Below, in pieces: positions 2,502 to 51,965 of a stretch of 64,000 nt of DNA. The notes below the pieces were generated by a model that did not search any database, had not been told where the DNA came from, and saw nothing but the letters and a program-made list of their open reading frames with translations. The stretch's first letter is position 1. The number at the start of each line of letters is the position of its first letter. The position numbers and the translations under genes are program-made. This DNA comes from Owenweeksia sp. (GTDB lineage Bacteria > Bacteroidota > Bacteroidia > Flavobacteriales > Schleiferiaceae): positions 186,001 through 250,000 of the forward strand of contig NZNV01000008.1 in NCBI GenBank assembly GCA_002695025.1. The letters run 5' to 3'.

Positions 2502-3001
2502 AAATACTACTCTTCAGTTTCATATTCTCGGCCCTGGCCAGCTGTAAGAATAATGACAGGTTCAGGGACGAACCTTTTTTGGAATATCGTTCCTACCGCT
2601 ACGTATATGACGAGGACAGCACCTCAAACCGCAAAAGCATTGAATTTACGCTTTACTTTACCGATGGTGACGGAGACCTGGGCTCCGATGAGGAACCGAA
2701 AGATACCTGTGACATCTCCATCAATAACTTTTTTATCCGCTATTTTGAAAAAGTGGACGGCACCTATACGGAAGTAGAACCCAGGGATTCCTGTCTACCT
2801 TTTGACAGCCGTATCCCAAGCCTGTCTCCGGGAGGCTCCAACCCTACCCTGGAGGGAGAGATCATCACCTTCTTTGACTACAGCGGCTATCCTTTTAACG
2901 AAGATGTGGATTCAGTACGCTTTGAATTCAAGGTAGTAGACCGTGCCGGACACGAGAGCAATATCAGCGGCTCCCCTTCTATTCCTGTTCCTCAACGGTA
3001 G
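2483..3001 (+). CDS. Small lipoprotein of unknown function
   Basis: This 172-residue protein has a lipoprotein signal peptide ending in the lipobox LASC (Cys about residue 21), so it should be anchored in the envelope. The mature part contains FTDGDGDLGSDEEP, an acidic calcium-loop-like motif often seen in uncharacterised Bacteroidota lipoproteins, and an Ig-like C-terminal half (VDSVRFEFKVVDRAGHES). It is divergent from the LuxE-like gene and its last 23 bp overlap the convergent Na/phosphate cotransporter gene. A TATTTTTG element at 2423-2430 could be its -7 box. No specific function can be assigned. Confidence 0.75.
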   Translation: MRNFSSKILLFSFIFSALASCKNNDRFRDEPFLEYRSYRYVYDEDSTSNRKSIEFTLYFTDGDGDLGSDEEPKDTCDISINNFFIRYFEKVDGTYTEVEPRDSCLPFDSRIPSLSPGGSNPTLEGEIITFFDYSGYPFNEDVDSVRFEFKVVDRAGHESNISGSPSIPVPQR

Positions 3002-4712
3002 AACGTACTTCCTGGGGAAGGAATACCTCACTGATACTCACCACATGGTCAGCAATCCGCTCCATTTCTGAGATCAGATCACTATAATACATACCACTTT
3101 CCAACCGGAAACGGCCTTTCTCGATTTTTTTGATGTACTCTTCCCGCAGCTCCTGATACATTGTATTGATTTCCCTCTCTAATCTTTGGGCCTCCCTGAA
3201 ATTCATCTTATTCTCGCTGGCTTCCAGGTTACTCACCATCAGATCCATGGCCTTTCCTACCAGCTCAGATAGCTTCAACACCCGATCCCGTATTTCCTGG
3301 GTGAAGTAGGCCTTCTTCTTTTTGCGGGCATCCAGATTGCGGCTGATCTCCAGGTAGATGTCACCGATACGTTCCAGGTAGTTGGCCACGCTGAGCATAC
3401 TACGCACCCTGGCGCTGGCTTCTGAACTCAGATCCCCTGCCGAAGCCTTGGTTAGATAGGTAGCGATCTCTATTTCCATACGGTCGGAAATATCCTCGTA
3501 ATTCTCCAGCTTCTCCACGTATTTCTTAAACTTCTTCTCCTCCATTTCAGTAACCAGGCGCGGCACATATTTGTAAGCCCTCCGCATGAGATCGGCAAAC
3601 TTGGCCAGTTCCTTTCGGGCCTCTATGATGGATAATTCGGGCGTTGCCATCAAACCGCTACCGATGTAATCGAGACTAAAGACCTCATCTTCGCCTTTGG
3701 AAGGCACCATACGGGTAACCACCTTGGCAATAATACCCACAAAACCCACCATGATCAATACATTCAGAATATTAAACGAGGTATGGAACAAAGCCAGAGC
3801 CTTGGGAATACTGGTTGCTGTTTCGTAAGGATTACTACCAAATACAGACTCGGTTAAAGAGGCTATGATGTTGAGGAAAAAAGGTAGCAGCAGCAACATC
3901 CACAGTACCCCGAAAACGTTAAAGATAAAATGCGCCCGGGCCGCCCGTTTGGCGTGCACATTGGCAATAAGAGCCGCCAGGTTAGCGGTTATGGTGGTGC
4001 CGATGTTCTCCCCTAATACAATGGAAGCCGCCAACGGAAATGATATCCAACCCTCATTACACATGACCAGGGTAAGCGCCATAGCCGCACTGGACGACTG
4101 CACCACAATGGTAAGCAAGGTCCCTATACCCACAAATATCAGGCTGATGAGAAATTTACCCACCAGACCTTTTTCATCATAGGTAAGATCACTTAAGAAC
4201 TGTAGGACCTCAGGGTGTGATTTCAGATCGGGAACGGCATCTTTCATAAAGGCCAGACCCAGAAAGAGCAGGGCAAAACCTATGAGTACCTCACCCCATA
4301 ATTTGATCTTTTCGCGGCCGGCAAACATCATGGGAAAACCCACCGCCACAATAGGAAGACAAAGCGCACTGATGCTGAATTTACCGAGGCCCAATATGGA
4401 AATAAGCCAGGCTGTAACCGTGGTACCTATATTGGCACCCATAATCACCCCGATGGATTCCACCAGGCTTAATAAGCCGGCATTTACAAAGCTTACCACC
4501 ATTACGGTAGTGGCTGAGGAGGACTGTACCAGGGACGTGATCAGAAGACCCGTGAAGATGCCGAAAAAGCGGTTGGAAGTCATGGCTCCCAATATTTCGC
4601 GCAGCTTGCTGCCGGCCACTTTCTGAATGGCATCGCTCATGACCTTCATTCCATAAATGAAAATGCCCAACGCTCCGATAAGGGTAAGAAAATCGAATAT
4701 CCCGAAACTCAT
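2979..4712 (-). CDS. Na+/phosphate cotransporter family protein (NptA/YjbB-like) with PhoU-like C-terminal domain
   Basis: The protein has 577 residues. Its N-terminal 330 or so form two hydrophobic repeats, each with the signature QSSSA (QSSSATTVMVVSF and QSSSAAMALTLV) and a GxNIGTT motif (GANIGTTVTAW, GENIGTTITAN). These are diagnostic of the SLC34-like Na/Pi cotransporter family in the inner membrane. The C-terminal 220 residues are charged and helical, matching the PhoU-like domain commonly fused in bacteria. Related proteins move phosphate with sodium; bacterial YjbB can act as an exporter, so the direction is not fixed by sequence. I see no TTAA-N7-TTAA motif upstream, unlike the phosphate-response genes farther on. 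Confidence 0.9.
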   Translation of the reverse strand: MSFGIFDFLTLIGALGIFIYGMKVMSDAIQKVAGSKLREILGAMTSNRFFGIFTGLLITSLVQSSSATTVMVVSFVNAGLLSLVESIGVIMGANIGTTVTAWLISILGLGKFSISALCLPIVAVGFPMMFAGREKIKLWGEVLIGFALLFLGLAFMKDAVPDLKSHPEVLQFLSDLTYDEKGLVGKFLISLIFVGIGTLLTIVVQSSSAAMALTLVMCNEGWISFPLAASIVLGENIGTTITANLAALIANVHAKRAARAHFIFNVFGVLWMLLLLPFFLNIIASLTESVFGSNPYETATSIPKALALFHTSFNILNVLIMVGFVGIIAKVVTRMVPSKGEDEVFSLDYIGSGLMATPELSIIEARKELAKFADLMRRAYKYVPRLVTEMEEKKFKKYVEKLENYEDISDRMEIEIATYLTKASAGDLSSEASARVRSMLSVANYLERIGDIYLEISRNLDARKKKKAYFTQEIRDRVLKLSELVGKAMDLMVSNLEASENKMNFREAQRLEREINTMYQELREEYIKKIEKGRFRLESGMYYSDLISEMERIADHVVSISEVFLPQEVRSTVEEQE

Positions 4713-4830: not shown

Positions 4831-7800
4831 TTACTGAACAATCAGCTTCCTGGAAGCTTTGGCACCGTTCATTTCTACAGAAATAATATACACACCGCGA
4901 GATAAGGATGAAGTATTGAATTCCACCAACTCGTCAGCCGTTTCAAAACCGCTGATCCTCTGACCGGCCAATGATACTATCTCTACTTTCTTCAATTCAT
5001 GGGTTGCAGTGCTGATAAATACCTTCTCCGAAGCAGGGTTGGGGTAAAGGGTAATATCGTTCAGCATAAATTCTTCCAGGCCAATAGGAGCCATATTTCC
5101 AGGGTTACCAAGGTCACCACTGTTGGACAAATAAGCTCCGTCCACACCGTTTACTGAAGAACCCAGTGCAGCACCGGTAGTATCAAACTGCAAGGACACA
5201 CCAAGGCTCACATCACCAGCGCCCCAGCTTACACTGGAGATCTTCTGGCCCTTATCATCATAGAAGTTCACCTCATCGGCTGATTCCTGCAGGCTGGAGA
5301 ACCCGATAATACCTACTTCGTCCTTGGCTATAACCACCAGGTTGGTCTGCAGTTGCCTCCAGGTATAAGCCCAAGTGCTGTCATCAGGTGTAACCTCATC
5401 GAGGAAGATGATGGACTCACCCGGATTGATCACCAGGCTGGTTTTTACTTTACGGGTTCCGGGCACATCATCGCTATCATCCCAGCTGAAGTCCAGCAGG
5501 TCGATAGGGTCTGATCCGTAGTTGGTCAATTCGAACCAATCGCCATCCACCGTTGGGTGTGCACTGTTGGGCATTACTTCGGTAATAGCCACTTTAGGCA
5601 GGATACGGATAATGTCCTGTCCTTTGCGGGGTTGTATCTGGTACTCATCTGTGTAAGGGTTGGATGGGTCATACTGACCACCAATACCGATCACATCAAA
5701 TTTACCCACGGGAGGCTTACCCCAGTTGGTTATGATATCGGCATCCACACGCAGGATAACGGTATCATTGGTAGGCAATACTATGTTAAAGTTACCGAAG
5801 TTGGCGGAAGGCCAGCCGGTAGTATCCACCATTTCCACACCGTTCAGGCGTATAAGACGACCTTCGGTTCCTTCTCCGAGAGAAGTTTCCACAGCCGGGG
5901 CAGGGAGTGTATTTCCTGAAGAGATCAGTTTTACAGAATCGGGTACGATCTCTATAGTACCGTTAAACTGCTCAATATGACCGATAGCACGGATAAGATC
6001 ACCTTCAACCGGGGTATAGAGAAAACCGGAAATATTACTCTTATACACTTTTACACCCGCATCATTATTGGGCGAAGTGATGTAGAAATCATAACGGTTG
6101 AAACCCAGGTTAGAGATAGAAACGATACCTTCCAGTTTACAACGCACATTCAACGAGTCAGATACACCATTGGCGTCTACACCTACAATATCAATGATAT
6201 TATAAAGGGGAATGCTGTCAATAATGGTATATACATGCGTGGAAGGAACCCCGATATTAACACCGGTAGCCTGAGCAAGGGTAAAGGTAATGTCCTCATC
6301 ATCCTCATTAAGACCATCCGAGATCATATTCACATCAAAGCTTACCGCAGTATCACCAGCAGCGATGGGCAGGGTAATAGTGTCATTAACCACCGCAGGA
6401 GTGGTGGTATAATCACCGGAAGTCACGTTCAGTCCGTTGCTTACATATACCTTAACCTGACCGGCAGACGTGGCAGCAGGAACTATAGGCATATCAACAG
6501 CTACAGTGCCCTGGTTTTCCACCCGCGACTGAGCTCCTGATGAGAAAGTAATGGTTGGGGTGGTTACTACCACGGGAATGATATCATTCAGGTCACGCGG
6601 CATGATCTGGTATCCACTGGTAAAAGGGTTAGAGCTGTCAAACTGACCACCGGCACCTATTACGTCAAACTGACCGGTAGGAACTGGTGAGCCATCAATA
6701 TCAGTATCAGAATCAATACGCATGATAACCGTTACAGTACCGTTGGAGATGTTAACGCTTGCGCTGCTTCCGGCAGCAGGCCATGATGAGGGGGTAACCA
6801 CACTAAAACCATTCAGGCGAACATATTCTCCTTCGGTAGATTCATCAACAGTAGGCGCAACAGCCGGAGACTTCAGTGTAATATTGGAATCCAGGCGAGC
6901 CACCGAATCAATAACCAGTTCAATCAAACCGTTAAAATTCTGGATCTCACCGATCACCCGTACAGAGTCTCCACGCTTCACGGTATAACCGCTCACATCC
7001 GTACTGGTAAATACATTTACACCTCCTGTAGCATCGTATATAAAGAAGCTGAAGCCATCGTTACCATCAAAATCATCGGTATATACAATACCATTCAGTT
7101 TACAGTAAACGTTAGCGGAATCAGGAACACCATTCACATCAGATGTGGTAACATCCGCAATATCATAAGTAGGAATTCCTGGGGCAGACGCATCATTATC
7201 CTGAACCACTAACTGGTAATCCAGGTTGGTACCCAATAAAAGACCGGAGGTAACACCAGTGATGCTCACAAATAGGGTTTCGTTACTTTCTACCAGCGCG
7301 TCATCTACAATACTGATATCAAAGCTTACGCTATCCTCATTGGCAGGAACATTCAGTGTAAAAATACCGGTAGTAGGATTGGGTGCAGGGTTTATAGAAC
7401 CATCACCGGGAACGGTAATTCCGGCACCTATAGTCACCTGGAAGGTTATAGTCTCTGAAGTAGAAGCTGTTGGGTTGATCAAGGCATTAACCGTAATGGT
7501 ACCCGCACTTTCACTTACTACCTGAGAGGTAACCGGGAAATTAACCGTTGGGTTAGCGGGAGGAGCCAGCAGAATGTCACTCAGTCGGCTGGGCAGGATC
7601 TGATAACCTTCGTCAAAGGGAGTGGAGCTATCATACTGGCCACCGGCACCTATTACGTCAAACATTCCAACCGGAGCCGTAGTACCGTCAATATCGGTAT
7701 CACGGTCAATGCGAAGAGTAGTGGTATCGGTACCGTTGGTAATCAGAACACTGGCATCACTTCCGGCAGCAGGCCAGGAAGAAGGATTGATCACCCAGTA

Positions 7801-9624
7801 ACCGTTGATCCGGATGTAGTCACTTTCAACCGACTCATCGGGGGCTGTAACCACCGTGGGAGTTTTAAGTGTTTTTCCTGTAGCCCACAGAACCACAGAG
7901 TCTGCAACTATTTCGGTAAGACCATTAAACTGGTCGATATCGCCAAATACACTAATGGAATCTCCAGGGTTTGGAGAGGTATAGGTAGGCACATTATTAA
8001 AGTTGAAAACGTTGATGGCTCCGGTAGCATCATAAATATAAAGGCTATAACCTGCGTTACCGTCAAAATCAATGGAATGCACTATCCCGCGAACTTCGCA
8101 GGTTACATTCAATGAATCCACTTCACCGCTAACATCATTGGTAGTTACCTGGCTGATGGTGTAGTAAGGCACTGTGGAAGCCGGTCTGGCTTCAAAGTCC
8201 AGCAGGCTGCTGGGTAGGATCTGGTAGCCTTCATCGTAAGGCGAGCTATTGTCAAACTGACCACCAGCACCTGTTACGTTAAAAGGAGCGGTAGGAACGG
8301 GGGACCCGTCAATATCCGTATCGCGGTCAATACGCAGGGTGGTAGTGTCTTCACCGTTGGTGATCGAAACACTGGCATCACTTCCGGCAGCGGGCCAGGA
8401 AGAAGGATTGATTACCCAGTAACCACTGAGTTTAATGTAATCTCCTTCGGTAGCTTCGCCAGGAACTGTAACAGAAGCTGGTTGCTTAAGGCTTACACCG
8501 CTAGTAAGTAGCACTATGGAATCGGGCACTATTTCAGTAAGCCCGTTGAACTGGTCAATAGTTCCGATTACACGGATAGAATCACCTACCGCAGGGCTGT
8601 TGTAATTGCTTACATCATTGAATTCAAAAACATTGATACCACCGGTAGCATCGTATATATAAAAGCTATACCCTGCATTACCGTCAAAGTCAATAGAGTG
8701 AACAACACCGTGCAGGCGGCATTCTACACTCATAGAGTCAGGCACGCCATTGGCATCGTTGGTGGATACATTAGCAATATCATAAGTAGGTATACCGCCT
8801 GCTCCTACCTGGGGCGCTTCTACGCGGAAGTTATCCACACCTGCATAATCAGAACCTCCATTTTGTTTAGCGTAAATACGAACGCGAACGTGAGTTGCTG
8901 AAGAAGGAACCGCAATATCAACAGTAGTCCAAGCTTGTGAATCTTTATTCAGTTCAGTAAGAGGTCCCCATGTTGAGCCATTGTCAAATTCCACCACGTA
9001 GGCCAGAGAGTCACTACTATCAAAACCAATGGTGTAATAATCGAACATTAAATGGGCGTTGGGCAAACCGCTTACGTCTACCGCTGCAAAATCAAGAGTA
9101 TGGCCAAAAGCACCTCCACCGTTAGGGTTTTCCAGATCCTGCATTCCCCAGAAGTTAGCTCCGGATGAAGGAGTGATGGATGAGAGTGAAGTAACTGTGC
9201 CCCAAACATCACCTGATACATTGTATGAGGCAGGGTTATTAACGTAAGTCCAGGAACCTCCACCTTCAAAACTCTGCGTTACGGGAGCTGTTACAGCTGG
9301 TAATGGATTAACCGTAATACTGCCTGACATACCAGGCGCATGTGGGTCACATTGATAGCTATAGTTACCAACTTTTCCAAATACGTGCTGGAATGTCCAG
9401 CCGGTACCTACAGAGTTCCCGAAAGATTCAGGGTTTCCAGAGAAAGTACTGGTAGTACCGTTTACGTTATGAGAGCCGGAAGTGTTAGTCCAGATTACCG
9501 TATCACCTTGTGTAATGGTGAGACTGGAGGGGTTGAAGAAATTGCTACCCACGGAAACGTTGTGGACCGTGGCAAATCCTGCCAGGCTCAGCAGGCATAC
9601 CAAAAGGGATAATCTTACTTTCAT
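4831..9624 (-). CDS. Giant T9SS-secreted protein: cupredoxin, four OB-fold-like repeats, two Calx-beta, lamin-tail and sorting domain
   Basis: This 1597-residue protein has a signal peptide (to about residue 18) and then a plastocyanin-like domain at about 20-107 with all four type 1 copper ligand positions visible (H52, C92, H95, M99). A MAM/anchor-like region follows at 115-270. Four OB-fold-like repeats of the DUF5689/nuclease-associated type begin at about 275, 484, 819 and 1135, each with NGVPDS-like and FxGNAGYSxYIYDATG-like motifs. Calx-beta-like segments lie at 690-810 and 1022-1132, a lamin-tail domain at 1342-1470 (EVMPNSAHP...DWFELTNYG), and a T9SS type A sorting domain at 1525-1597 (LYPNPASEK...RKLIVQ). 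Lamin-tail and OB-fold modules often accompany extracellular nucleases, but no catalytic domain is visible here. The gene is monocistronic, with a Pho-box-like motif upstream. Confidence 0.85.
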   Translation of the reverse strand: MKVRLSLLVCLLSLAGFATVHNVSVGSNFFNPSSLTITQGDTVIWTNTSGSHNVNGTTSTFSGNPESFGNSVGTGWTFQHVFGKVGNYSYQCDPHAPGMSGSITVNPLPAVTAPVTQSFEGGGSWTYVNNPASYNVSGDVWGTVTSLSSITPSSGANFWGMQDLENPNGGGAFGHTLDFAAVDVSGLPNAHLMFDYYTIGFDSSDSLAYVVEFDNGSTWGPLTELNKDSQAWTTVDIAVPSSATHVRVRIYAKQNGGSDYAGVDNFRVEAPQVGAGGIPTYDIANVSTNDANGVPDSMSVECRLHGVVHSIDFDGNAGYSFYIYDATGGINVFEFNDVSNYNSPAVGDSIRVIGTIDQFNGLTEIVPDSIVLLTSGVSLKQPASVTVPGEATEGDYIKLSGYWVINPSSWPAAGSDASVSITNGEDTTTLRIDRDTDIDGSPVPTAPFNVTGAGGQFDNSSPYDEGYQILPSSLLDFEARPASTVPYYTISQVTTNDVSGEVDSLNVTCEVRGIVHSIDFDGNAGYSLYIYDATGAINVFNFNNVPTYTSPNPGDSISVFGDIDQFNGLTEIVADSVVLWATGKTLKTPTVVTAPDESVESDYIRINGYWVINPSSWPAAGSDASVLITNGTDTTTLRIDRDTDIDGTTAPVGMFDVIGAGGQYDSSTPFDEGYQILPSRLSDILLAPPANPTVNFPVTSQVVSESAGTITVNALINPTASTSETITFQVTIGAGITVPGDGSINPAPNPTTGIFTLNVPANEDSVSFDISIVDDALVESNETLFVSITGVTSGLLLGTNLDYQLVVQDNDASAPGIPTYDIADVTTSDVNGVPDSANVYCKLNGIVYTDDFDGNDGFSFFIYDATGGVNVFTSTDVSGYTVKRGDSVRVIGEIQNFNGLIELVIDSVARLDSNITLKSPAVAPTVDESTEGEYVRLNGFSVVTPSSWPAAGSSASVNISNGTVTVIMRIDSDTDIDGSPVPTGQFDVIGAGGQFDSSNPFTSGYQIMPRDLNDIIPVVVTTPTITFSSGAQSRVENQGTVAVDMPIVPAATSAGQVKVYVSNGLNVTSGDYTTTPAVVNDTITLPIAAGDTAVSFDVNMISDGLNEDDEDITFTLAQATGVNIGVPSTHVYTIIDSIPLYNIIDIVGVDANGVSDSLNVRCKLEGIVSISNLGFNRYDFYITSPNNDAGVKVYKSNISGFLYTPVEGDLIRAIGHIEQFNGTIEIVPDSVKLISSGNTLPAPAVETSLGEGTEGRLIRLNGVEMVDTTGWPSANFGNFNIVLPTNDTVILRVDADIITNWGKPPVGKFDVIGIGGQYDPSNPYTDEYQIQPRKGQDIIRILPKVAITEVMPNSAHPTVDGDWFELTNYGSDPIDLLDFSWDDSDDVPGTRKVKTSLVINPGESIIFLDEVTPDDSTWAYTWRQLQTNLVVIAKDEVGIIGFSSLQESADEVNFYDDKGQKISSVSWGAGDVSLGVSLQFDTTGAALGSSVNGVDGAYLSNSGDLGNPGNMAPIGLEEFMLNDITLYPNPASEKVFISTATHELKKVEIVSLAGQRISGFETADELVEFNTSSLSRGVYIISVEMNGAKASRKLIVQ
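7560..8800 (-). repeat. Tandem pair of OB-fold-like repeats encoded by recently duplicated DNA
   Basis: Two adjacent copies of a 207-codon unit make up residues about 275-690 of the giant secreted protein. The stretch 8368-8424 matches 7747-7803 with only two visible mismatches, and the offset is exactly 621 bp (207 codons), which keeps the frame. Two further copies, at about 6570-7170 and 5600-6225, are more diverged. Confidence 0.8.
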
Positions 9625-9648: not shown

Positions 9649-9704
9649 CAAAATTACCAAAGAATGCTGTTAGTATCAGCACCCGAGAGTTAAGCCAATG
9701 TTAA
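9649..9704 (-). promoter_or_regulatory. Promoter with Pho-box-like motif for the giant secreted protein
   Basis: On the minus strand TTAACATTGGCTTAACT (two TTAA half sites 11 bp apart, plus-strand positions 9690-9693 and 9701-9704) lies 37 bp before a perfect TAnnTTTG element, TAATTTTG (9656-9649). The ATG is at 9624. No TTG-type -33 element is visible at the usual spacing, which fits an activator-dependent promoter. The link to a PhoB-type regulator is inferred. Confidence 0.5.
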
Positions 9705-10081: not shown

Positions 10082-12937
10082 TTACCGGATCTTATAACTG
10101 AAGGAAAGACCAATTACTCTTCCCGGGTTATAGCTGTTGAAGATCCGGTCATCTGAGCCGTATGACTCCACCGTTTCTTCTTTAAGGTCGTCCAGAATGT
10201 TATCTATAGAAAGACCTACTTGAAATTTCTTGTCTTCTCCAAAAGATTTCAATAGGTTAAAATTCAGGCTGTGAAAAGGTTCGGTATACACATCCGGCAC
10301 ACGCGCAATACCCACAATGGCCAGCCTTCTTCCCTGAACGTTGTAATAGATACCCGCTTCAAAAAGATCAGGATCATTATAGCTCAAACCAGCATTTACA
10401 ATGTAGGGAGCCTGGCCCTGCATAGGCCTGAACTCATCAACGGTTTCACCTTCACGGGCCCATTCTACACGACTTTCATACTGACCACCGGGTGTTTTAT
10501 CCAAAGCGATCTGTGAAAATGCGTAGGTAAGGTTGGTATTCAACGAAAGGTTTTCCAGGGATGGAGAAATGAAATCAAAGTTTTTACGCAATTCAAACTC
10601 CAGCCCGTATACCTGGCCATCGCCTACGTTACGCGGCTGAAAGTTACTAGTAGCTGCCGCTGAATACGTTACTCTTTCAATAGGATCGGTAAAGTACTTA
10701 TAGAAGGCGCTGACCGCTACGGTCTGGTTCTTCTCATAGAATATTTCGTACCTCACATCCAGGTTATCAATATATGTTTGGGTAAGATCCAGGTTACCCA
10801 ATTCTGTTTGCCCTTTAAGAACGTCCTGAATTTGTGCAGTCGACTTTTCTTTAAAAGAAGGCCTGGCTGTAGTTCTAAAGTAGCTGAACCGAAGATTGGT
10901 TTTTTCGTTGGCAAAATAAATAAGACTAATGGTGGGAAAAAGGTCCAGCAGGTCCAAAACATTCTCATCATTAAATACCACTCCAGCCTGATCCTGACCG
11001 GTATAATAGTGATCAAATTTTTCCACGCGCAAACCTACCACCGACTTAAACCTTGAGCTGAACTGGAATTCTTCCGAAGCATAGGCCGAAATAATAGTTT
11101 GACGAGCATTAAAAGTATTGCTAGGCTGGTAGTTACCGGCATAAAACATACCATATCGCTTTTGTGGAGTCCAGATAAACTCATCGGTCAGCAATTCATT
11201 GGCATCGCCTGTGTATACCACACCTTGTTCCCCATTAGGCGCAGGTTGTTCCACTAATTGGTAGTTTAATATTTCAAAGTCGCGGTATTTATAGGTATAG
11301 CCTACGCCCATCTTAAGCTTGGCTTCATAACTTAGAAGTTCATGATTGAATGCCGCATCTACCTTGGCAGGCACATTCACTTCATTTAGATAACGCCATA
11401 TTCTCACCGGAGAAGCTCCTTCACTGGGGTCTATGATCATTTGGCCATCTTTGGAAACATAAGGAGTAACCCTCACGTCCTTATCACCCAGGCGGGAAAG
11501 GGTTGGAGACACACGCCAGCTCAGTTCCCAGCTGTTGCGGGATTCTGTATTGGCCAGGAGGTATTCTCCTGCCAACAACACATTGGATAGGGAACGTTCG
11601 TTATACTCCAGGTTATCACGGTAGATTAAAGCGGAGTTATTAATCATCTGGTCATCCCTGAAATAACCAGACAGTTTCTGACCATTCTGCAGGTGCATCA
11701 GGTTCAAACGGTGTTTGGTAGTACCGTTCTTAATGGCCAGGCCCAGCAGACCATTCAGGTATACATTATTCTCACCCAGGGCACCGGTAATAGCACGATC
11801 TGTGCGCAGTTCACCAATACTGGGGTCTGGGTTTTTAAAGTAATAGTTTTGCTGGTATTGATCGTAGTAGTTGGTGGTATTTTTATAGGAAACCGAACCG
11901 ATTAATCCCAATTTGGAATCTCCCATATCATACTGGTTACCCCCGGAAGCACCCAGGCTGAAGTTAGCGGGGCTGGTGGCTTCTTCAACTGCTAAGGTAG
12001 AGTTGAAACTTTTGGTAACCTCCGTGGTTTCGGAGGATTGCAGGGCCGGGTTCGGGATCTGATAATTAGGATCGGTAAGATTATCACTGGGAACCGCACG
12101 TGTACCATCGTCAAAACCCAGAAAATCGGTTCCACCACCGGGGTACGTCTTGTAATTGCTGTTAAAATGCTGCTCAGGATTATATCCTACACTGGCCGAA
12201 ACATTAAAGCTGGGCTTATCCGGAAAATCTTTGGTTTCAATATTTACAATACCCCCTGCCATATCAGCCGGAAGATCGGCTGTAAATGATTTTAATACGG
12301 TAATGTTCTCAATGATGTTGGTTGGGAAAATATCCATCTGGATAGCGTTCCGGTCCGGGTCAAGACCCGGAACATCCATTCCGTTAAGGGTAGTCTTGGT
12401 ATAACGGTCTCCCAAACCCCTTACGTACACGTATTTGCCACCCTGTATGGAAACACCGGGCACACGGGTTACCGCAGCTGCGGCATCACCATCACCTATC
12501 TTTTGGAAGGTTTGCGCTGATATACCGTCCAGAACGTTTACCGATTTTTTCTTAACGGTAAGCATAGCGGCTTCCGTATTCCGGATGGAAGAAGCGGTAA
12601 CTGTCACCTCACCCAGCTCACTGGAGGAAGGTTGGATCTTAATGACTTCAATAACGTTTACCTCTCCGGTTTTTACTTCCACATCTGTAATGGTAAGCGA
12701 GTTGTAACCGATAAAGGACACTACAAGGCTGTAGGTTCCGGGGTCTGCCTTCAATTCAAATTTTCCGTCAAAGTCAGTGGTGGTTCCAATGGTAGTTCCC
12801 TTTAATACCGCGTTGGCACTATACAGGGGTTGGCCGGTTTCATCTATTACTGTTCCCCGGAGGGTTCCTTTTTGGGCAAAAGCCGCTACAGTACAAAACA
12901 GAAACGGCAAAATCTTAATAACACCTGCTATCCTCAT
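10082..12937 (-). CDS. TonB-dependent outer membrane receptor with carboxypeptidase-regulatory-like domain
   Basis: This 951-residue protein has a signal peptide to about residue 21 (ending AAFAQ) and a carboxypeptidase-regulatory-like beta-sandwich at about 24-110 (GTVIDETGQPLYSANAVLKG). A plug domain follows at about 130-250 (VRGLGDRYTKTTLNG, then ADMAGGIVNIETKDFP). The remainder is a beta-barrel ending in an aromatic-rich strand (LSFSYKIR). Such receptors import large or scarce ligands across the outer membrane with energy from TonB. No SusD-type partner is adjacent. The gene lies just downstream of the beta-helix lipoprotein and near the PhoB/PhoR-like pair, which suggests a phosphate-linked substrate. 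Pairing and substrate are inferred. A hairpin 33 bp before the start may attenuate transcription. Confidence 0.9.
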   Translation of the reverse strand: MRIAGVIKILPFLFCTVAAFAQKGTLRGTVIDETGQPLYSANAVLKGTTIGTTTDFDGKFELKADPGTYSLVVSFIGYNSLTITDVEVKTGEVNVIEVIKIQPSSSELGEVTVTASSIRNTEAAMLTVKKKSVNVLDGISAQTFQKIGDGDAAAAVTRVPGVSIQGGKYVYVRGLGDRYTKTTLNGMDVPGLDPDRNAIQMDIFPTNIIENITVLKSFTADLPADMAGGIVNIETKDFPDKPSFNVSASVGYNPEQHFNSNYKTYPGGGTDFLGFDDGTRAVPSDNLTDPNYQIPNPALQSSETTEVTKSFNSTLAVEEATSPANFSLGASGGNQYDMGDSKLGLIGSVSYKNTTNYYDQYQQNYYFKNPDPSIGELRTDRAITGALGENNVYLNGLLGLAIKNGTTKHRLNLMHLQNGQKLSGYFRDDQMINNSALIYRDNLEYNERSLSNVLLAGEYLLANTESRNSWELSWRVSPTLSRLGDKDVRVTPYVSKDGQMIIDPSEGASPVRIWRYLNEVNVPAKVDAAFNHELLSYEAKLKMGVGYTYKYRDFEILNYQLVEQPAPNGEQGVVYTGDANELLTDEFIWTPQKRYGMFYAGNYQPSNTFNARQTIISAYASEEFQFSSRFKSVVGLRVEKFDHYYTGQDQAGVVFNDENVLDLLDLFPTISLIYFANEKTNLRFSYFRTTARPSFKEKSTAQIQDVLKGQTELGNLDLTQTYIDNLDVRYEIFYEKNQTVAVSAFYKYFTDPIERVTYSAAATSNFQPRNVGDGQVYGLEFELRKNFDFISPSLENLSLNTNLTYAFSQIALDKTPGGQYESRVEWAREGETVDEFRPMQGQAPYIVNAGLSYNDPDLFEAGIYYNVQGRRLAIVGIARVPDVYTEPFHSLNFNLLKSFGEDKKFQVGLSIDNILDDLKEETVESYGSDDRIFNSYNPGRVIGLSFSYKIR

Positions 12938-13046: not shown

Positions 13047-14282
13047 TTAGAATGCTCCGCTGGTTTTAGCGTAAGTCCAGGCAAAAGCACTGGCATCAGC
13101 ACCAGCAGCACCCTGGTTGGTTGAAACTTTAGCGTTAGCTTCAGTAAGGATAGCAAAAGCACCACCTACACTTGACTTATCCAACAGAAGTTTATCAATG
13201 CTCTTGGTAGAGTTGATTACCCATCCGTTAAAAGCAAGGGCTCCTGAAAGGAAGTTAGCAGAGCTCACGTTGTCATCCAATTCGATATCAGCTGAGCTGG
13301 AGAAACCTTCAAAGTACAGGTTGTTCAGTGTACCACGGGCACCATCACGGAAGTCACCCATTTCGCCACCACCAATGTCATTCTTATCTTCGTCACGAAG
13401 GATGTAACCAATCAAGGTACCGTCTTCCATAGTAAAACCGGCTTCGTAGCTTCCTTCCGGACCATCCACTTCCATGCTGTGGTCAGACTCAGAACCGGAG
13501 ATACCCATAAAGTTGCTGATCGTACCTGAGTAAGACTGGTCAATATCAAACAGGTCATCACCTACGTTCCACACCAGGGCGTTGCTTACGTTTACACTAC
13601 CACCGAAGAACTCGATACCGTCATCCAGGTTGTTGATGATCTCAACGTTGGTAATAGTAGTACCGCTACCTACACCACCAAGGGTAAGACCGTTGATCTC
13701 GTTACCTTCACCCAAAAGAGTTCCACCGTAACGGATAGACACGTAGTTGATTTTACCTGAGTTGTCAGCATCATTCTCTCCACCGTAAAGACCTTGAGTA
13801 ACGTTTCCGGGGATACCTTCAATTTGTTTTTCGCTGGCGTTAGCAGAGATCTTGGCTTTTCCAAGAACAATAACACCACCCCAAAGACCGTAGAAAGACT
13901 CATCCAGGTTAGGAGAAACAGTTTCGCCAATAGCAATCTCATCCAGCACTGAAGTGAAGATGATAGGCTTATCAGCAGTACCCTCAGCCATAATGGTAGC
14001 ACCACGGGCAATAACCAGGGCAGAAGCATTAGCTTCGCGACCGCCACGGGCTTTAATAATTGTACCGGGCTCAATTTTAAGAGTAACACCTGCATCAACA
14101 ATCACACGACCGTTCAATTCGTAGATTTTGTCAGCAGACCAGGTTTCATCAGATTTGATAAGACCGGCTTTAACCACGTTTGTGGAAGTGTTGTTGTTGT
14201 TGTCATCATCATCTTTGTCACAAGATGTAAGAGCAAATACAGCCATTACACTGTACAGCATCATTGATTTCAATTTTTTCAT
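13047..14282 (-). CDS. Beta-helix surface lipoprotein linked to the TonB-dependent receptor
   Basis: This 411-residue protein has a lipoprotein signal peptide (lipobox ALTSC, Cys21) followed by an acidic and Asn-rich tether (DKDDDDNNNN), typical of surface-exposed Bacteroidota lipoproteins. The mature part has short repeated strands rich in G, N and I (GVTLKIEPGTIIKA, IEGIPGNVTQG, TITNVEIINNLDDGIEFFGG) that indicate a right-handed parallel beta-helix. Such folds often bind or cleave extended polymers, but no catalytic motif stands out. It lies directly upstream of the receptor gene and divergent from the PhoB-like regulator, with a Pho-box-like motif before it. A ligand-capture partner for the receptor is a reasonable inference. 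Confidence 0.8.
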   Translation of the reverse strand: MKKLKSMMLYSVMAVFALTSCDKDDDDNNNNTSTNVVKAGLIKSDETWSADKIYELNGRVIVDAGVTLKIEPGTIIKARGGREANASALVIARGATIMAEGTADKPIIFTSVLDEIAIGETVSPNLDESFYGLWGGVIVLGKAKISANASEKQIEGIPGNVTQGLYGGENDADNSGKINYVSIRYGGTLLGEGNEINGLTLGGVGSGTTITNVEIINNLDDGIEFFGGSVNVSNALVWNVGDDLFDIDQSYSGTISNFMGISGSESDHSMEVDGPEGSYEAGFTMEDGTLIGYILRDEDKNDIGGGEMGDFRDGARGTLNNLYFEGFSSSADIELDDNVSSANFLSGALAFNGWVINSTKSIDKLLLDKSSVGGAFAILTEANAKVSTNQGAAGADASAFAWTYAKTSGAF

Positions 14283-14308
14283 CGGAATTCTGTTTTTAAG
14301 ATTTGCCG

Positions 14309-14342
14309 CAAAGGAAAGTTGGTTATGTTAAGTCTGCATTAA
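14309..14342 (-). promoter_or_regulatory. Pho-box-like motif and possible -7 element for the beta-helix lipoprotein
   Basis: On the minus strand TTAATGCAGACTTAACAT carries two TTAA half sites 11 bp apart (plus positions 14328-14331 and 14339-14342). Fifteen bases downstream is TTCCTTTG (14316-14309), one mismatch from TAnnTTTG. The ATG is at 14282. The motif assignment rests on resemblance and on the neighbouring regulator. Confidence 0.45.
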
Positions 14343-14421
14343 CTCAACTTCAACTTTTATCCAAGCCTTTAAAACCGCTGTTCCCCGGTAAAAAACACAC
14401 TATTCATCCTTTATCTGTAAA

Positions 14422-14502
14422 TTAACCTGGGTTTAATACTGGTAATACTGCATTAAAGATTTGTTAAGACGGGAGACCGGCTGGTGAATATGGTTACTTT
14501 TG
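14422..14502 (+). promoter_or_regulatory. Promoter of the PhoB/PhoR-like operon with two Pho-box-like pairs
   Basis: Two TTAA pairs, each with 11-bp spacing, lie at 14422/14433 and 14453/14464. A perfect -7 element TACTTTTG is at 14495-14502, and the ATG is at 14525. No TTG -33 element is visible at normal spacing. The position of the second pair, upstream of the -7 element, resembles that of activator sites in autoregulated PhoB-type operons. Confidence 0.55.
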
Positions 14503-14524
14503 ACCCGTATTTTTCTGAAAACGT

Positions 14525-15208
14525 ATGAAAAACAGCGATTACAAGATCCTTTTGGTGGATGATGAACCGGATATTATCGAGTTCGTAAGCTATAACCTTA
14601 AGAAGGAAGGTTTTGACGTTTTAACCGCCAGTAATGGTGAAGACGGTCTGGCTATGGCCAAGAAGAGTCATCCCCATCTTATACTGCTTGACGTGATGAT
14701 GCCCGGCATGGATGGGATTGAAACCTGCGACCAGATACGGCATACGCCAAACCTGGAGGATACGCTTATTGCCTTTCTTACCGCCAGAGGTGAAGACTAC
14801 AGCCAGGTAGCCGGCTTTGATGCCGGTGCGGATGACTACATCACCAAACCCATAAAGCCCAAAGTACTGATCAGCCGCATTAAAGCATTGCTGAGACGTT
14901 ACGGCCAAACGGAAAAGAAATCCAACCTGCAGGAATTCGGCAAGATCATTATCGATCTGGACAAATACCAGGTAAAGTATAAGGATAAGAAGCTGGATCT
15001 TCCCCGTAAGGAATTTGAATTGCTTACCCTGCTTACTTCACGCCCCGGAAAAGTCTTTCATCGCGATGAGATACTGGATAAGATATGGGGTAACGAGGTA
15101 GTGGTAGGCGGCCGCACTATTGATGTACACATCCGCAAGCTCCGTGAAAAGATTGGTGAAAAGTATATCAAAACCGTTAAGGGCGTAGGTTACAAATTCG
15201 AAGTATAA
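14525..15208 (+). CDS. OmpR/PhoB-family response regulator
   Basis: The protein has 227 residues with a receiver domain at 6-120 and a winged-helix DNA-binding domain at about 130-227. The phosphoacceptor is D56 (LILLDVMMPG), with the acidic pair at 12-13, T86 and K108 (YITKP) all present. The C-terminal domain has the OmpR-type recognition region (VVGGRTIDVHIRKLREK) and ends GVGYKFEV. The kinase gene follows after 27 bp, and the pair resembles the PhoB/PhoR pairs of Bacteroidota. The adjacent outer-membrane genes and the Pho-box-like repeats support a role in phosphate sensing, but the signal cannot be read from the protein itself. Confidence 0.9.
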   Translation: MKNSDYKILLVDDEPDIIEFVSYNLKKEGFDVLTASNGEDGLAMAKKSHPHLILLDVMMPGMDGIETCDQIRHTPNLEDTLIAFLTARGEDYSQVAGFDAGADDYITKPIKPKVLISRIKALLRRYGQTEKKSNLQEFGKIIIDLDKYQVKYKDKKLDLPRKEFELLTLLTSRPGKVFHRDEILDKIWGNEVVVGGRTIDVHIRKLREKIGEKYIKTVKGVGYKFEV

Positions 15209-15235: not shown

Positions 15236-16282
15236 ATGAGAATGGATCAGCCGGGTTTCCTGGCTTTAACGATATCTCTGGTACTGGGGTGTATCGTTTT
15301 TGTTATCGGGATCTCCTTAGGTTTATGGATAAATAAGGACCTGCACTGGCAGGAGATACTCCTTTTTTCTATAATTACCGTTTTCATCGCCTACCTGCTC
15401 TTCCGTTTTGCGGTTCACCAGTTTATCTACAGCAAGGTAAAGATCATTTACAAGAACATCCATGACCTTAAGGTGGGTAACGATGCCGATGAGGATGAAG
15501 TGGTACGCACTACAGACCTGGACATGGTAACCCGTGAAGTTTCCGAATGGGCAGAGCAACGCAGGAACGAGATCCAGGAACTCAAGGCTCGGGAACAGTT
15601 CCGCAGGGAGTTTATCGGTAACATCTCCCACGAATTAAAAACACCTATTTTCAACATACAGGGCTATCTGCTCACCTTGCTGGATGGTGCCCTCGATGAT
15701 CCCGAGATCAACCGCAAATACCTTAAAAGGGCCAATAAGTCCGTAGACCGGATGATCAATATTATTGATGACCTCGAAACCATCAGCAACCTGGAAGCCA
15801 ACCGCGTTCATCTTGCCTACAGCGATTTTGACATTATCAGCCTGGTAAAGGAAACGTTTGAGCTGTTGGAGGAAAATGCCAAGGAACGGCAGGTAGAGCT
15901 CCGCCTTAAAAAGGACTATGACAAACCTCTTAAGGTAAATGCAGACCGCCAGAAGATAGAACAGGTACTCATTAACCTGATCATTAATGCTATAAAGTAC
16001 GGCAAAGTAAAAGGCAAGGTTGAAGTGCGGTTCTACGATATGCACAACAACATCCTCATAGAAATTTCTGACGATGGTATCGGCATCCCGCAGGAAGATA
16101 TTCCCCGCATATTTGAGCGTTTCTACCGTGTGGACAAAAGCCGCTCAAGGGAAGCCGGGGGCACCGGGCTGGGCCTTTCCATTGTAAAACACATCATTGA
16201 GGTTCATAAGCAGACCATCAACGTGCGCAGCAGTGAGAATGCCGGCTCAACTTTTTCGTTCACCCTTAAAAAGTCCAAATAG
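15236..16282 (+). CDS. Sensor histidine kinase, PhoR-like
   Basis: This 348-residue kinase has two membrane segments (about 8-31 and 40-58) with almost no periplasmic loop between them, then a HAMP-like linker. A HisKA domain follows with H132 (FIGNISHELKTP), and an HATPase domain with N box (NLIINAIKYG), G1 (DDGIGIP), F box (FERFYRVDKS) and G2 (GGTGLGLSIV). The short sensor region resembles PhoR, which senses phosphate through the transporter and PhoU rather than by binding a ligand itself. It forms an operon with the PhoB-like regulator. Its last 36 bp overlap the convergent glycosyltransferase gene. Confidence 0.9.
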   Translation: MRMDQPGFLALTISLVLGCIVFVIGISLGLWINKDLHWQEILLFSIITVFIAYLLFRFAVHQFIYSKVKIIYKNIHDLKVGNDADEDEVVRTTDLDMVTREVSEWAEQRRNEIQELKAREQFRREFIGNISHELKTPIFNIQGYLLTLLDGALDDPEINRKYLKRANKSVDRMINIIDDLETISNLEANRVHLAYSDFDIISLVKETFELLEENAKERQVELRLKKDYDKPLKVNADRQKIEQVLINLIINAIKYGKVKGKVEVRFYDMHNNILIEISDDGIGIPQEDIPRIFERFYRVDKSRSREAGGTGLGLSIVKHIIEVHKQTINVRSSENAGSTFSFTLKKSK

Positions 16283-17305
16283 AGCGGTTCGGTCAACTGC
16301 TATACCGGTATTAGTATGGAACCCGGGGTACTCCAATGCCCTGGGAATATCTTCGGCCAGACTTACCTTTTTTTGAGACACCGCGTAGAACAATTTCTTT
16401 TCCATTAAACTTTCAGCCAGGTATTCCTGCTCCACCTGCCCGGGCGTAGGTATGAGTAAAGCCTTGTTCCGTAAAACGTGATAGTCCATTAAAGAAGAAT
16501 AACCCGAACGGCTGATGATCAGGCGTGACCGGTTGATCACCTGCGCTATTTCCTCACCCACCATCAAATTCTTAAAGGGGATCTTAGTTTTCAGATCAGG
16601 CTTGCTTAATGTGCCCCGTACCAATAGAAAGTTTCCTTTCAATTGCTCCAGTTGGTTGAGCAGCTTTTTTTCCAGAAGGCTTCTTTGCGGTTCCGGTCCA
16701 CTTAAAATTACCACCGCATCGTATTCCACTTGGGCCTCCTTTTGCTCCTCAAGCTGGGAAAGCGCACCAATAAACTTTAGCGGCACCTCTGGCTTCAAGG
16801 TATGCGTAAGTGCCCCCCCTATTGTATTCTCTCCCTCAAAATCGGGCACCCAACATTCTGAAAACCGGTTGATATAACGATGATGAAGCGTGTTTACCAA
16901 AGGGTAAGACACGGGTATGTTAAGCTGGTGCGTAATATAGGCCGAAGGCACAGAAGAGTTACTAAATCCCAGACGGTTATCTGAGACCATACCTTTAGCA
17001 TCATACTTTCTCAGCAGCTTAGCAGCAAGAGCCCTCTCCTTATACACAGCTAAGCCTATACGGGGTAATTGCATCATCATGTTGAGAAAAAAAGCTCCAT
17101 TTGAATAGCGCACACCATAAGCCGGTAACTCTTCGGTAGGTAATTCCGGGAAAAGCTCTTGCAAGTACTCCAGAGCCACGCCATCCGAGGCTATAACAGG
17201 CTTAAAGCCTGCATCCTTGAGGGCACGAATCAACGGAACCGAGCGTGTAGCATGGCCCAGGCCCCAATTCAGTACTCCGAATAATATGTGATCTTGCCTG
17301 GCCAT
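16247..17305 (-). CDS. Glycosyltransferase-like protein (GT28/MurG-like fold)
   Basis: This 352-residue protein begins with ILFGVLNWGLGHATRSVPLI, the N-terminal glycine-rich loop of GT-B fold glycosyltransferases, and has a C-terminal domain with SGPEPQRS and IISRSGYSSLMDY, the latter being the nucleotide-sugar binding region typical of the GT28 C-terminal family. It probably moves a sugar from a UDP-sugar to a cell-surface or lipid acceptor, but neither donor nor acceptor can be named. It is convergent with the kinase gene (36-bp overlap) and divergent from trmB, with 59 bp between the start codons. Confidence 0.75.
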   Translation of the reverse strand: MARQDHILFGVLNWGLGHATRSVPLIRALKDAGFKPVIASDGVALEYLQELFPELPTEELPAYGVRYSNGAFFLNMMMQLPRIGLAVYKERALAAKLLRKYDAKGMVSDNRLGFSNSSVPSAYITHQLNIPVSYPLVNTLHHRYINRFSECWVPDFEGENTIGGALTHTLKPEVPLKFIGALSQLEEQKEAQVEYDAVVILSGPEPQRSLLEKKLLNQLEQLKGNFLLVRGTLSKPDLKTKIPFKNLMVGEEIAQVINRSRLIISRSGYSSLMDYHVLRNKALLIPTPGQVEQEYLAESLMEKKLFYAVSQKKVSLAEDIPRALEYPGFHTNTGIAVDRTALFGLFKGERKS

Positions 17306-49442: not shown

Positions 49443-49497
49443 CAAAGATAACTAGTTTCATTCCACCTATTACCCCTTTATGTTAAGGGAATTTTAA
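49443..49497 (-). promoter_or_regulatory. Promoter with Pho-box-like motif for the secreted nuclease-fold gene
   Basis: On the minus strand TTAAAATTCCCTTAACAT has two TTAA half sites 11 bp apart (plus positions 49483-49486 and 49494-49497). A perfect TATCTTTG -7 element (49450-49443) begins 36 bp downstream, and the ATG is at 49417. No -33 TTG is visible. The distal half site overlaps the stop codon of the upstream AsmA-like gene. Confidence 0.5.
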
Positions 49498-51965
49498 TTT
49501 TGGTTTTTCTTCGGCTCTTCCTCCTCCCATTCAAAGATGATCCCAGGGTCTTCTTTTTTCTCCGGCTCTTTTTTCTTGAATATTTCACGGATCTCTTTTC
49601 CCTGCTCCTTCAAGTCCCTGGATATAGATTCCCCCAATGATTTCCGGTCCAGTGAAATTTCGGGATCACTGGCCTTACCGGTCATTTTCACATATATATA
49701 AGGATCATCATTGTTCTTCACTTCCACCAGGTGCTCGTCAAACTCTGATTTACCGGACTTGCGTGCGCGGTTATTGAACAATACGTCATCCAGCTTGAGG
49801 CGCATGGTATAATTGACCCTGTTGTCAAAATCATGTATTCCGCTGATCTGTAAGCTCAGTACATTACTTTCCACATCCATGCGGGGAATGATCACCTGTG
49901 ATTCTTTTATAGAAATAGTATTGTTGAGTGAGTTGAAACGAACATCCTCCAGTTCCTTTATATCCGCAAAGCGGGAAAGGGCCTGCATGGGTTCGTAGTT
50001 TTTGAGGTTGCCGTCACGAATGCGGATATTGGCCGTCATCTCCACGGTTTCGGTAAGAACGGTGAGATCCGGCAGCATAAAGGAGGTAAAATCAATATCT
50101 GCGGTAGCCCGTCCATAAATATGATCGGCCGCAATAGCTTCCTGGCCGAAATCACCGAAACTCACAAAAAGGTCATGGATCTCAATGTTATCAGCCCCCA
50201 GGCGGGCATCCACCTTGTAGCGTTCACCGGTATTGAGGTCTACCGAAAAATATCCCTTATAACTGCCCTGGTCCGCCTTAAGCGAGAGGTCACTAACTTT
50301 TATCAGGCCATCGTGTATGCTGAGGTTCCCGGTAATCCCCGAGGCCTGGAATTTTTTGAACCCAAAACGGTCGACCCCTACGCGCAGATCAAGATCCAGG
50401 GAACGGGCCACATTAAGGTTGTAACTGTCATTACCTTTTTTACTGCTACCCACAAAATCCGAAAGGTCTATTTCCTGAGATCGCACGCTACAGTCCACCA
50501 AAAGCTTTTCATCTTCCAGCAGTATATAATTGAGCACATTCTCAAAGCGACCCTCCAGGTAGATATCGCTTTGGCCAGTTTTCAGGTACAGCCTCTTTAC
50601 CTTGAGGTCATTACCCATAAAGGCCAACTCACCATTAATATCCTTTACGGACTTATCAGACCCCAGAAATTGAAAGGATGCCTCCTGAATGCTGAGGCTT
50701 CCTTCGGTACGTGCCTTTCGTAGCTCTGCTGCCTTTACCGTTTTCAATGACCCGAACTGGTTCTCAAAATGCACATCCATAACGATCTTGCCACGAGGTT
50801 CTTCAACGGTATCCAGGGGAAGTACTACCAACCACTCCGCCAGCTCCAGGTCAGAACGCATATTAAGTTTTACAAAAGGCGAGGAAAGCTCACGGATGAG
50901 CAGGTCGCCTTCAATGCTGCCAGTTTCGCCTTTGCCACGGAAGCGGTTCACATGAAGTTCATCGGAACCTGCTTTATAGGTATACCGGCCCGAACAATCA
51001 ATAGCATGGATACGGGCACCTTTATAGCCGGACACAGAAGCACCTGTGGTACTGAAGTCCAGCTGAAAGCGCGCATCCTGCCCGGAGGCAAAGGTTCCTG
51101 AAAATCGAGCATTGCCTTTTCCCTTCAGTTCCGCATCCTTAAGAGTGTACCAACCCTGCTCGTGGAGCAATTGCTGCACATGGTTAAGATCCATTGAAGC
51201 TGAAGATGCCTGTACGGAGGTTTGGCCACGGGCCGTGGTGGTACTCACCTCAAAGCTCAGGTCCTTCCACTGAAGGCTTGCCGGCTTTACCACCACTGAA
51301 TCCTCCCCGTAACCGGCAAGGGTAAAGACAACTTCCAGTGGAACGGCATGCAGGTAGCGGTTTTCGTTCACCCACAGGTTTTGCACCTGCAGGCTGCCCT
51401 TATTCTCCAGGCGATAATCGGATTCCTCAAAATTTCCTTTAAAAGTAAGATCGTTAATAAAGAATGCGGAGCGAAAACCAGAGCCCTGATCCTCAGTAGT
51501 GGCATGTATATCCTCCAGGTCCACCCTTTCCAGGGTAAAAAGCCCTTGCGAAGAGGACGTATCTTCTTTCCATATCCGGTAGTTGTCGCGACCATCAGAA
51601 CGCAGACGGATGTTCACCACTGCCTTTTCAACGTCAATTTCCTTGATGGAAACGGAAGAAAAAAGCACCTCCCACACGCTAAACTGCAGGTATATGCGCT
51701 GAGCATAAACAAGGGTATCCCCTGGGCTGCTGTAAGCACCCGAGGAAAAAACATCTGTAAATACAAAGGAAGCATTGGGGAATTTTCGCAGGCTTATGTT
51801 AACACCGCTTACATCAACAGGAACCGCCAATTGTTTATTGATCTCTTTGATCAGGACACCCGAAAGCTTATCACGGTTGACGTACAGAATGGCAAAAGCC
51901 ACCAGGAACAAAGCCAGCAAAATTGAAAATGCCCAAAGTCCGAACTTTATGATCTTCTTCCCCAT
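49494..51965 (-). CDS. AsmA-family membrane-anchored protein
   Basis: This 823-residue protein has one N-terminal membrane helix (FGLWAFSILLALFLVAFAILYV, residues 8-29). A long beta-rich periplasmic part follows, starting with the AsmA-type segment LIKEINKQLAVPVDVSGVNISLRKFPNASF and ending with VLSLQISGIHDFDNRVNYTMRLKLDD. AsmA relatives bridge inner and outer membranes and move phospholipid. The C-terminus is unusually charged, with K/E runs (FKKKEPEKKEDP, EWEEEEPKKNQN) that may lie outside the fold. It is likely a separate transcription unit ending just before the nuclease gene. Confidence 0.82.
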   Translation of the reverse strand: MGKKIIKFGLWAFSILLALFLVAFAILYVNRDKLSGVLIKEINKQLAVPVDVSGVNISLRKFPNASFVFTDVFSSGAYSSPGDTLVYAQRIYLQFSVWEVLFSSVSIKEIDVEKAVVNIRLRSDGRDNYRIWKEDTSSSQGLFTLERVDLEDIHATTEDQGSGFRSAFFINDLTFKGNFEESDYRLENKGSLQVQNLWVNENRYLHAVPLEVVFTLAGYGEDSVVVKPASLQWKDLSFEVSTTTARGQTSVQASSASMDLNHVQQLLHEQGWYTLKDAELKGKGNARFSGTFASGQDARFQLDFSTTGASVSGYKGARIHAIDCSGRYTYKAGSDELHVNRFRGKGETGSIEGDLLIRELSSPFVKLNMRSDLELAEWLVVLPLDTVEEPRGKIVMDVHFENQFGSLKTVKAAELRKARTEGSLSIQEASFQFLGSDKSVKDINGELAFMGNDLKVKRLYLKTGQSDIYLEGRFENVLNYILLEDEKLLVDCSVRSQEIDLSDFVGSSKKGNDSYNLNVARSLDLDLRVGVDRFGFKKFQASGITGNLSIHDGLIKVSDLSLKADQGSYKGYFSVDLNTGERYKVDARLGADNIEIHDLFVSFGDFGQEAIAADHIYGRATADIDFTSFMLPDLTVLTETVEMTANIRIRDGNLKNYEPMQALSRFADIKELEDVRFNSLNNTISIKESQVIIPRMDVESNVLSLQISGIHDFDNRVNYTMRLKLDDVLFNNRARKSGKSEFDEHLVEVKNNDDPYIYVKMTGKASDPEISLDRKSLGESISRDLKEQGKEIREIFKKKEPEKKEDPGIIFEWEEEEPKKNQN

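Follow-up and report, generated by a model that had tools for sequence, protein, structure and literature searches.

TTAA repeats with an 11-bp period as putative Pho boxes of a PhoB-like regulator in Owenweeksia sp. and related Flavobacteriales

The Pho boxes of Bacillus, built of TTAACA-like repeats, and those of cyanobacteria share an 11-bp period. According to a review, a Pho box consists of two or more direct repeats, each 11 nt long, that lie in front of PhoB and of phosphate genes, and the consensus differs among species (PMC4415409). In Bacteroidota, sets of phosphate-induced genes are known from transcriptomics and proteomics, and most genes of the PhoBR cluster of Flavobacterium johnsoniae (Fjoh_0541-0549) are induced by phosphate depletion (Lidbury et al., PMC8115612), with fold changes of 3.06 for PhoB, 8.02 for the TonB receptor, 9.91 for the lipoprotein FII, 5.42 for the PF04101 glycosyltransferase, and 0.76 for PhoR (FDR 0.056). 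The same article places MauG together with PhoX in this species and describes the phosphate-induced PlcP, whose Pfam family is Metallophos_2; the terms "motif", "promoter" and "Pho box" do not occur in its main text. PhoB of Bacteroides fragilis binds the pstC promoter in EMSA (PMC3547664), and the text of that report contains none of the terms "motif", "consensus" or "binding site". For marine bacteria, putative Pho boxes close to plcP are mentioned in a passage that gives no sequence (PMC4796936). In our searches of open-licence papers we found no stated sequence of a Bacteroidota Pho box, although one may exist elsewhere.

The locus described here lies in a window of 64,000 nucleotides from the Owenweeksia sp. 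assembly GCA_002695025.1 (contig NZNV01000008.1, positions 186,001 to 250,000); its features are collected in Table 1. It has in common with the F. johnsoniae cluster, as the latter is presented in PMC8115612, the PF04101 glycosyltransferase, PhoR, PhoB, the TonB-dependent receptor and the FII lipoprotein, and differs from it by an extra Na/Pi-PhoU gene and a large T9SS protein. The Na+/Pi cotransporter of this locus is the only protein in the genome with PhoU-domain matches. The regulator is the genome's best match to NF053854 (the Bacteroides PhoB model), but it scores below the curated PhoB cut-offs (TIGR02154, 223.1 vs 296.2 bits; NF053854, 218.5 vs 270), and we therefore refer to it as PhoB-like; the kinase falls below the curated PhoR cut-offs (TIGR02966, 245.6 vs 334.2; NF053855, 161 vs 500). 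No match to the lipoprotein was found in Pfam or NCBIfam. In 61 Bacteroidota phoB loci, tblastn detected PhoR-like proteins in 52, TonB receptors in 28, glycosyltransferases in 28, and lipoproteins in 24, where a match anywhere in the locus was counted and loci cut by contig ends were included.

Table 1. Genes and putative regulatory sites at the PhoB-like locus (positions in the window)
Feature	Position	Strand	Evidence
Na+/Pi cotransporter, C-terminal PhoU domains	2979..4712	-	profile matches
T9SS-sorted protein, 1597 aa; DUF5689, LTD, OB-fold and plastocyanin-like domains	4831..9624	-	profile matches
TAATTTTG box, 33 bp (three 11-bp turns) downstream of the 9690 pair	9656-9649	-	sequence
TTAA-N7-TTAA pair upstream of the T9SS gene, at 66 bp	9690..9704	-	sequence
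TonB-dependent receptor	10082..12937	-	profile matches
FII-type lipoprotein	13047..14282	-	relatives at phoB loci and at exact TTAA triplets
Putative -7 box TTCCTTTG of the lipoprotein gene, 11 bp from the nearest TTAA	14309..14316	-	sequence
TTAA-N7-TTAA-N7-TCAA array beside the lipoprotein promoter	14328..14353		sequence; pair also present in several relatives
TTAT-N7-TTAA-N7-TTAA, distal half of the putative phoB operator	14411..14436		sequence, relatives
Putative core operator ATTAA-N6-GTTAA before phoB	14452..14467	+	(nearly) invariant columns, 10 relatives
-7 box TACTTTTG of phoB, 27 bp downstream of the core operator	14495..14502	+	sequence, alignment
PhoB-like OmpR-family response regulator	14525..15208	+	PF00072, PF00486
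PhoR/PnpS-like sensor kinase	15236..16282	+	profile matches
PF04101 glycosyltransferase, convergent with phoR	16247..17305	-	Pfam

The ORFs 13047-14282(-) and 14525-15208(+) diverge from a region of 242 bp (14283-14524), which carries TTAA-N7-TTAA pairs at 14328/14339, 14422/14433 and 14453/14464. These three pairs, the length of the divergent region, and a perfect -7 box without a -33 TTG had all been reported in a preliminary description of the sequence, which also labelled the lipoprotein a beta-helix protein, and we found each of these sequence features as described: TACTTTTG occupies 14495-14502, and TTG is absent from the 27 bp upstream of it (14468-14494). One-mismatch half-sites (TCAA at 14350, TTAT at 14411, GTAA at 14442) stand in 11-bp phase with the pairs. 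The period of 11 nt is like that of Pho boxes from other phyla; the core, TTAA preceded by A or G, differs from their CTGTCAT or GTTCACC, and CTGTCAT repeats of the E. coli-type Pho box are absent from both strands of 14283-14524. In a PhoB-type operator the units run head to tail and have about seven conserved bases each; here TTAA is palindromic and hides the orientation of the half-sites, whose conserved flanks consist of A/G before and weak preferences after. The whole window contains 8 TTAA-N7-TTAA sites, compared to a mean of 2.61 in 100 shuffles, none of which reached 8. Of the eight, those at 9690, 14328, 14422 and 14453 are not inside any listed ORF, and the one at 49483 overlaps the 3' end of an ORF (49494-51965); these five agree with the five non-coding pairs counted previously. 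Shuffling of the 242-bp region yielded 0.061 pairs on average and three pairs in none of 20,000 trials, while at least three pairs at any single spacing of 4-30 bp arose in 6 of 5,000. Scaled from these shuffles, about 0.76 pairs are expected per 3 kb at the composition of this region, so the earlier chance estimate of 0.2 was too low, although the local excess it pointed to is real.

Analysis of the DNA upstream of phoB reveals that the 11-bp spacing is conserved. The first set, drawn from the own genome and relatives of the family and order, gave 35 matches, of which 30 with loci were used; the second comprises 59 of 80 loci, following the removal of 19 from outside Bacteroidota, of L162 (too little upstream DNA), and of L186, taken as the same contig as the relative G017. 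The 30 regions contain 32 TTAA-TTAA pairs at 11 bp and at most 7 at other distances up to 45 bp, with the exception of 20, 31 and 42 bp, where the excess arises because the layout is repeated. In the 59 regions there are 37 pairs at 11 bp, vs 6.0 +/- 2.6 in 200 shuffles (largest value 13), and no other distance has more than 14. Pooled into 89 regions, in which members common to both sets are possible, the 11-bp pair occurs in 48, vs 6-15 for the spacings of 8-10 and 12-17, and the strict form ATTAA-N6-GTTAA in 30; the exact pair is absent from 41. An alignment of 10 regions from Schleiferiaceae, the family of the window (mean column identity 53%), has 25 invariant columns; 16 of these belong to TTAA 14453, to TTGTTAA 14461-14467 or, within the -7 box, to TA..TTT. 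The core at 14453 is more widely kept than the pairs at 14328 and 14422, the former of which is retained in relatives such as L050, L053, L055, L058, L062, L064 and L075. The flavobacterial operator reads ATTAAATTACCGTTAAC and similar. The motif is unevenly found across the phylum: Bacteroidales regions of the 59-region set are mixed, some with the 11-bp pair and several without, and B. fragilis belongs to this order, where the phoB regions examined here carry the pair only in part. Conservation in related species, which the preliminary description had named as a check of its prediction, is borne out by the 48 of 89 regions and the ten-genome alignment.

Bare pairs are not enriched genome-wide (146 vs 134 for the reversed pattern), and with counts so near the control we rejected them as a genome-wide predictor. 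In the own genome, exact N7 triplets give 5 overlapping matches at 4 places. Three of these places precede genes: one for a PhoD-like phosphatase, where there are four half-sites, one for a PhoX sorted by the T9SS, and one for a T9SS protein with DUF5689 and LTD. The fourth is intergenic within a cluster that encodes thioredoxin-like and AcrB proteins. Allowing one mismatch raises the N7 count to 43; the reversed pattern then gives 24, N10 gives 28 and N8 gives 45. Across 60 genomes of the family, exact N7 triplets (91) do not exceed N8 (98) and N10 (98), and the N10 count drops to 46 only after omission of two repeat-rich genomes. These genomes, G004 (C24, C52, C74, C165) and G051 (C62), contain TTAATGG-like tandem repeats with a 7- or 14-bp period, which inflate the N10 control. 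In the own genome 40 of 43 N7 triplets are intergenic, vs 13 of 41 N8 triplets (41 of the 45 N8 sites were used), and a stricter gene call leaves 33 of the 40 N7 triplets outside the window intergenic. The N8 control was rejected as unfair, because its 12-bp period keeps codon phase while in an 11-bp triplet TAA falls in all frames. N10 was run in its place; 11-bp triplets cannot sit intact in reading frames, and their intergenic position is therefore partly forced.

Analysis of the genes beside the triplets delineates a candidate regulon. Eleven of the 43 one-mismatch triplets lie at phoB, PhoX, PhoD, MauG or DUF5689 genes, and arrays of three half-sites were found at PhoX, PhoD, MauG and phoB; the 20 genes beside own-genome triplets that were scanned against Pfam include some without a known link to phosphate (AcrB, gyrA, subtilase). 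In relatives, 60 places with exact triplets were taken from the matches listed (G054:C205:157 was left out), and among these matches 73 genes start within 400 bp of a triplet. Twenty-one of the 73 match the query set from the own genome (PhoB 6, lipoprotein 6, MauG 2, TonB 2, fasciclin 2, and PhoX, DUF5689 and choice-of-anchor I 1 each). None of 18 control genes does; a nineteenth, the N8 gene L276, was left out. The query set was drawn from genes flanking arrays and 5 of the 6 PhoB matches come from one genus, so these figures reflect retention of the sites at orthologs and not blind enrichment. Family scans of the 73 genes add two Metallophos_2 and two GT2 proteins, alongside many unrelated families. 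Upstream of PhoX in the own genome and relatives, the 11-bp pair is present in 13 of 18 regions, while the next spacings, 22 and 6 bp, occur in 9 and 5 of them; the 18 come from 24 matches, of which 6 were set aside because their frames ran open to the end of the locus. A set of 24 genomes that underlie named loci provided 8 with a PhoX match and 7 analysed loci, too few to count, with the 11-bp pair in 4 vs at most 3 pairs at any other spacing. The association with phosphate genes that had been anticipated is seen where an array has three half-sites and where a pair precedes PhoX, and fails for bare pairs genome-wide. We also found genes for MauG-type di-haem peroxidases beside a PhoD-like gene (L028, C10) and beside a PhoX gene (L083, C7), each with its own TTAA array, and a PhoX domain in a 3275-aa open frame (G000:C10:24643-25512) a few kb from the PhoD-like gene.

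The sites in the 242-bp region lie between two divergent promoters, and the distance to the -7 box differs per side; the arrays often have three or four half-sites when degenerate ones are counted. On the lipoprotein side, the last TTAA is exactly 11 bp from the NNNNTTTG box in seven regions, including that of the window, and the next commonest gap is 22 bp (four regions). A gap of 11 bp to a -7-like box recurs at PhoX in three genomes, one of 22 bp at a second DUF5689 gene and one MauG gene (measured from the last, partly degenerate half-site), and one of 12 bp at a HAD gene; at PhoD, PhoX2, MauG2 and one TonB gene no TTTG box stands in phase with the array. The strict phoB operator is separated from TA..TTT[AG] by 26-28 bp in 20 of 37 listed gaps and by 36-37 bp in 8. 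From these distances we infer that the sites at effector genes extend across the -33 region or border on it and would activate from there. The phoB site would stand half a turn off the effector phase, in keeping with the modest rise of phoB in F. johnsoniae.

The TTAA pairs are, with good confidence, the operators (Pho boxes) of the adjacent PhoB-like regulator. This reading is based on the absence of three pairs from all 20,000 shuffles, the conserved 11-bp spacing, the footprint of operator and -7 box in the alignment, the match of the gene families to the phosphate-induced F. johnsoniae cluster together with the Na/Pi cotransporter with PhoU in the cluster, the arrays preceding PhoD, PhoX, MauG and DUF5689 genes, the pairs upstream of PhoX, and the 21 of 73 genes at exact triplets in relatives that match the query set. 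Counted against it are the unenriched bare pairs, the family-wide N7 triplets that do not outnumber N8 and N10, the regulator and kinase below cut-off, the arrays at the AcrB gene, the genes whose arrays have no TTTG box in phase, and the 41 phoB regions lacking an exact pair. The Bacteroidota Pho box predicted in the preliminary description is supported, as far as conservation and arrays at phosphate genes can indicate. In the mechanism that we envisage, phosphate limitation would lead the PhoR-like kinase to phosphorylate the regulator, and the DNA-binding domains of the latter would occupy successive TTAA half-sites, spaced by one helical turn (11 bp). At the putative lipoprotein-TonB promoter and some phosphatase promoters, where the array appears to end 11 (or 22, 33) bp before a -7-like box, the bound regulator would cover the missing -33 region, or sit close to it, and recruit RNA polymerase; at the phoB promoter the operator would be about half a turn off this phase, which could suit weaker autoactivation. 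We tentatively propose, as a possibility somewhat short of an even chance, that Flavobacteriales employ a two-phase code for phosphate starvation on the Bacteroidota -7/-33 promoter, with effector arrays in phase (11/22/33 bp) and the phoB operator kept about half a turn out (26-28/36-37 bp) across families, by which one regulator would combine strong effector induction with modest autoinduction. A TTAA-N7-TTAA code with -7-box distances would make Pho regulons predictable from sequence and open to testing at each promoter; with it, the response to phosphate starvation could be examined through a DNA code in a phylum for which we found no published one.

A different pattern of genes is associated with arrays in L079 (G000:C13:15000-30000). 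Here, arrays at 4583 and 7552-7588 precede genes for an AcrB-type efflux protein and a thioredoxin-like protein and adjoin a second OmpR-type regulator (C13:23950-24597). Their common form, TTAAG(A/G)TTTGCTTAA, is unlike the phoB core, and they possibly represent another regulon that uses 11-bp TTAA repeats. Their position beside a second response regulator cautions against ascribing TTAA arrays to PhoB alone.

As an alternative, the adjacent PhoB-like regulator might bind the sites of the 242-bp region and sense a signal other than phosphate (e.g. envelope or metal stress), the phosphate genes being incidental, as the scores of regulator and kinase below the PhoB and PhoR family cut-offs and the similar arrays at the second OmpR-type regulator and the AcrB efflux gene would allow; we regard this as improbable, given the Na/Pi-PhoU gene within the cluster, the arrays at PhoX and PhoD, and the response to phosphate depletion reported in PMC8115612 for the F. 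johnsoniae cluster of the same families. Even less credit is due to the proposal that a different regulator, such as the second OmpR-type protein on C13, binds the TTAA sites and that the PhoB-like gene is merely one of its targets: exact and near-exact arrays do adjoin that regulator's own gene cluster, but the core operator is tied to phoB orthologs across genera and the C13 arrays have the dissimilar form given above. Chance occurrence in A+T-rich intergenic DNA, to which genome-wide pair counts near the reversed-pattern control would conform, is very hard to credit and was rejected for the three pairs on the basis of the 20,000 shuffles, and it is contradicted by the core operator conserved across genera.

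Besides the families discussed above, a family of proteins of about 220 aa has exact TTAA triplets upstream of its genes in six genomes, all from a single genus; one member was scanned and gave no Pfam match. Judged by the position of its genes (L338, L342, L347, L350, L353 and L360), this family is a candidate member of the Pho regulon.
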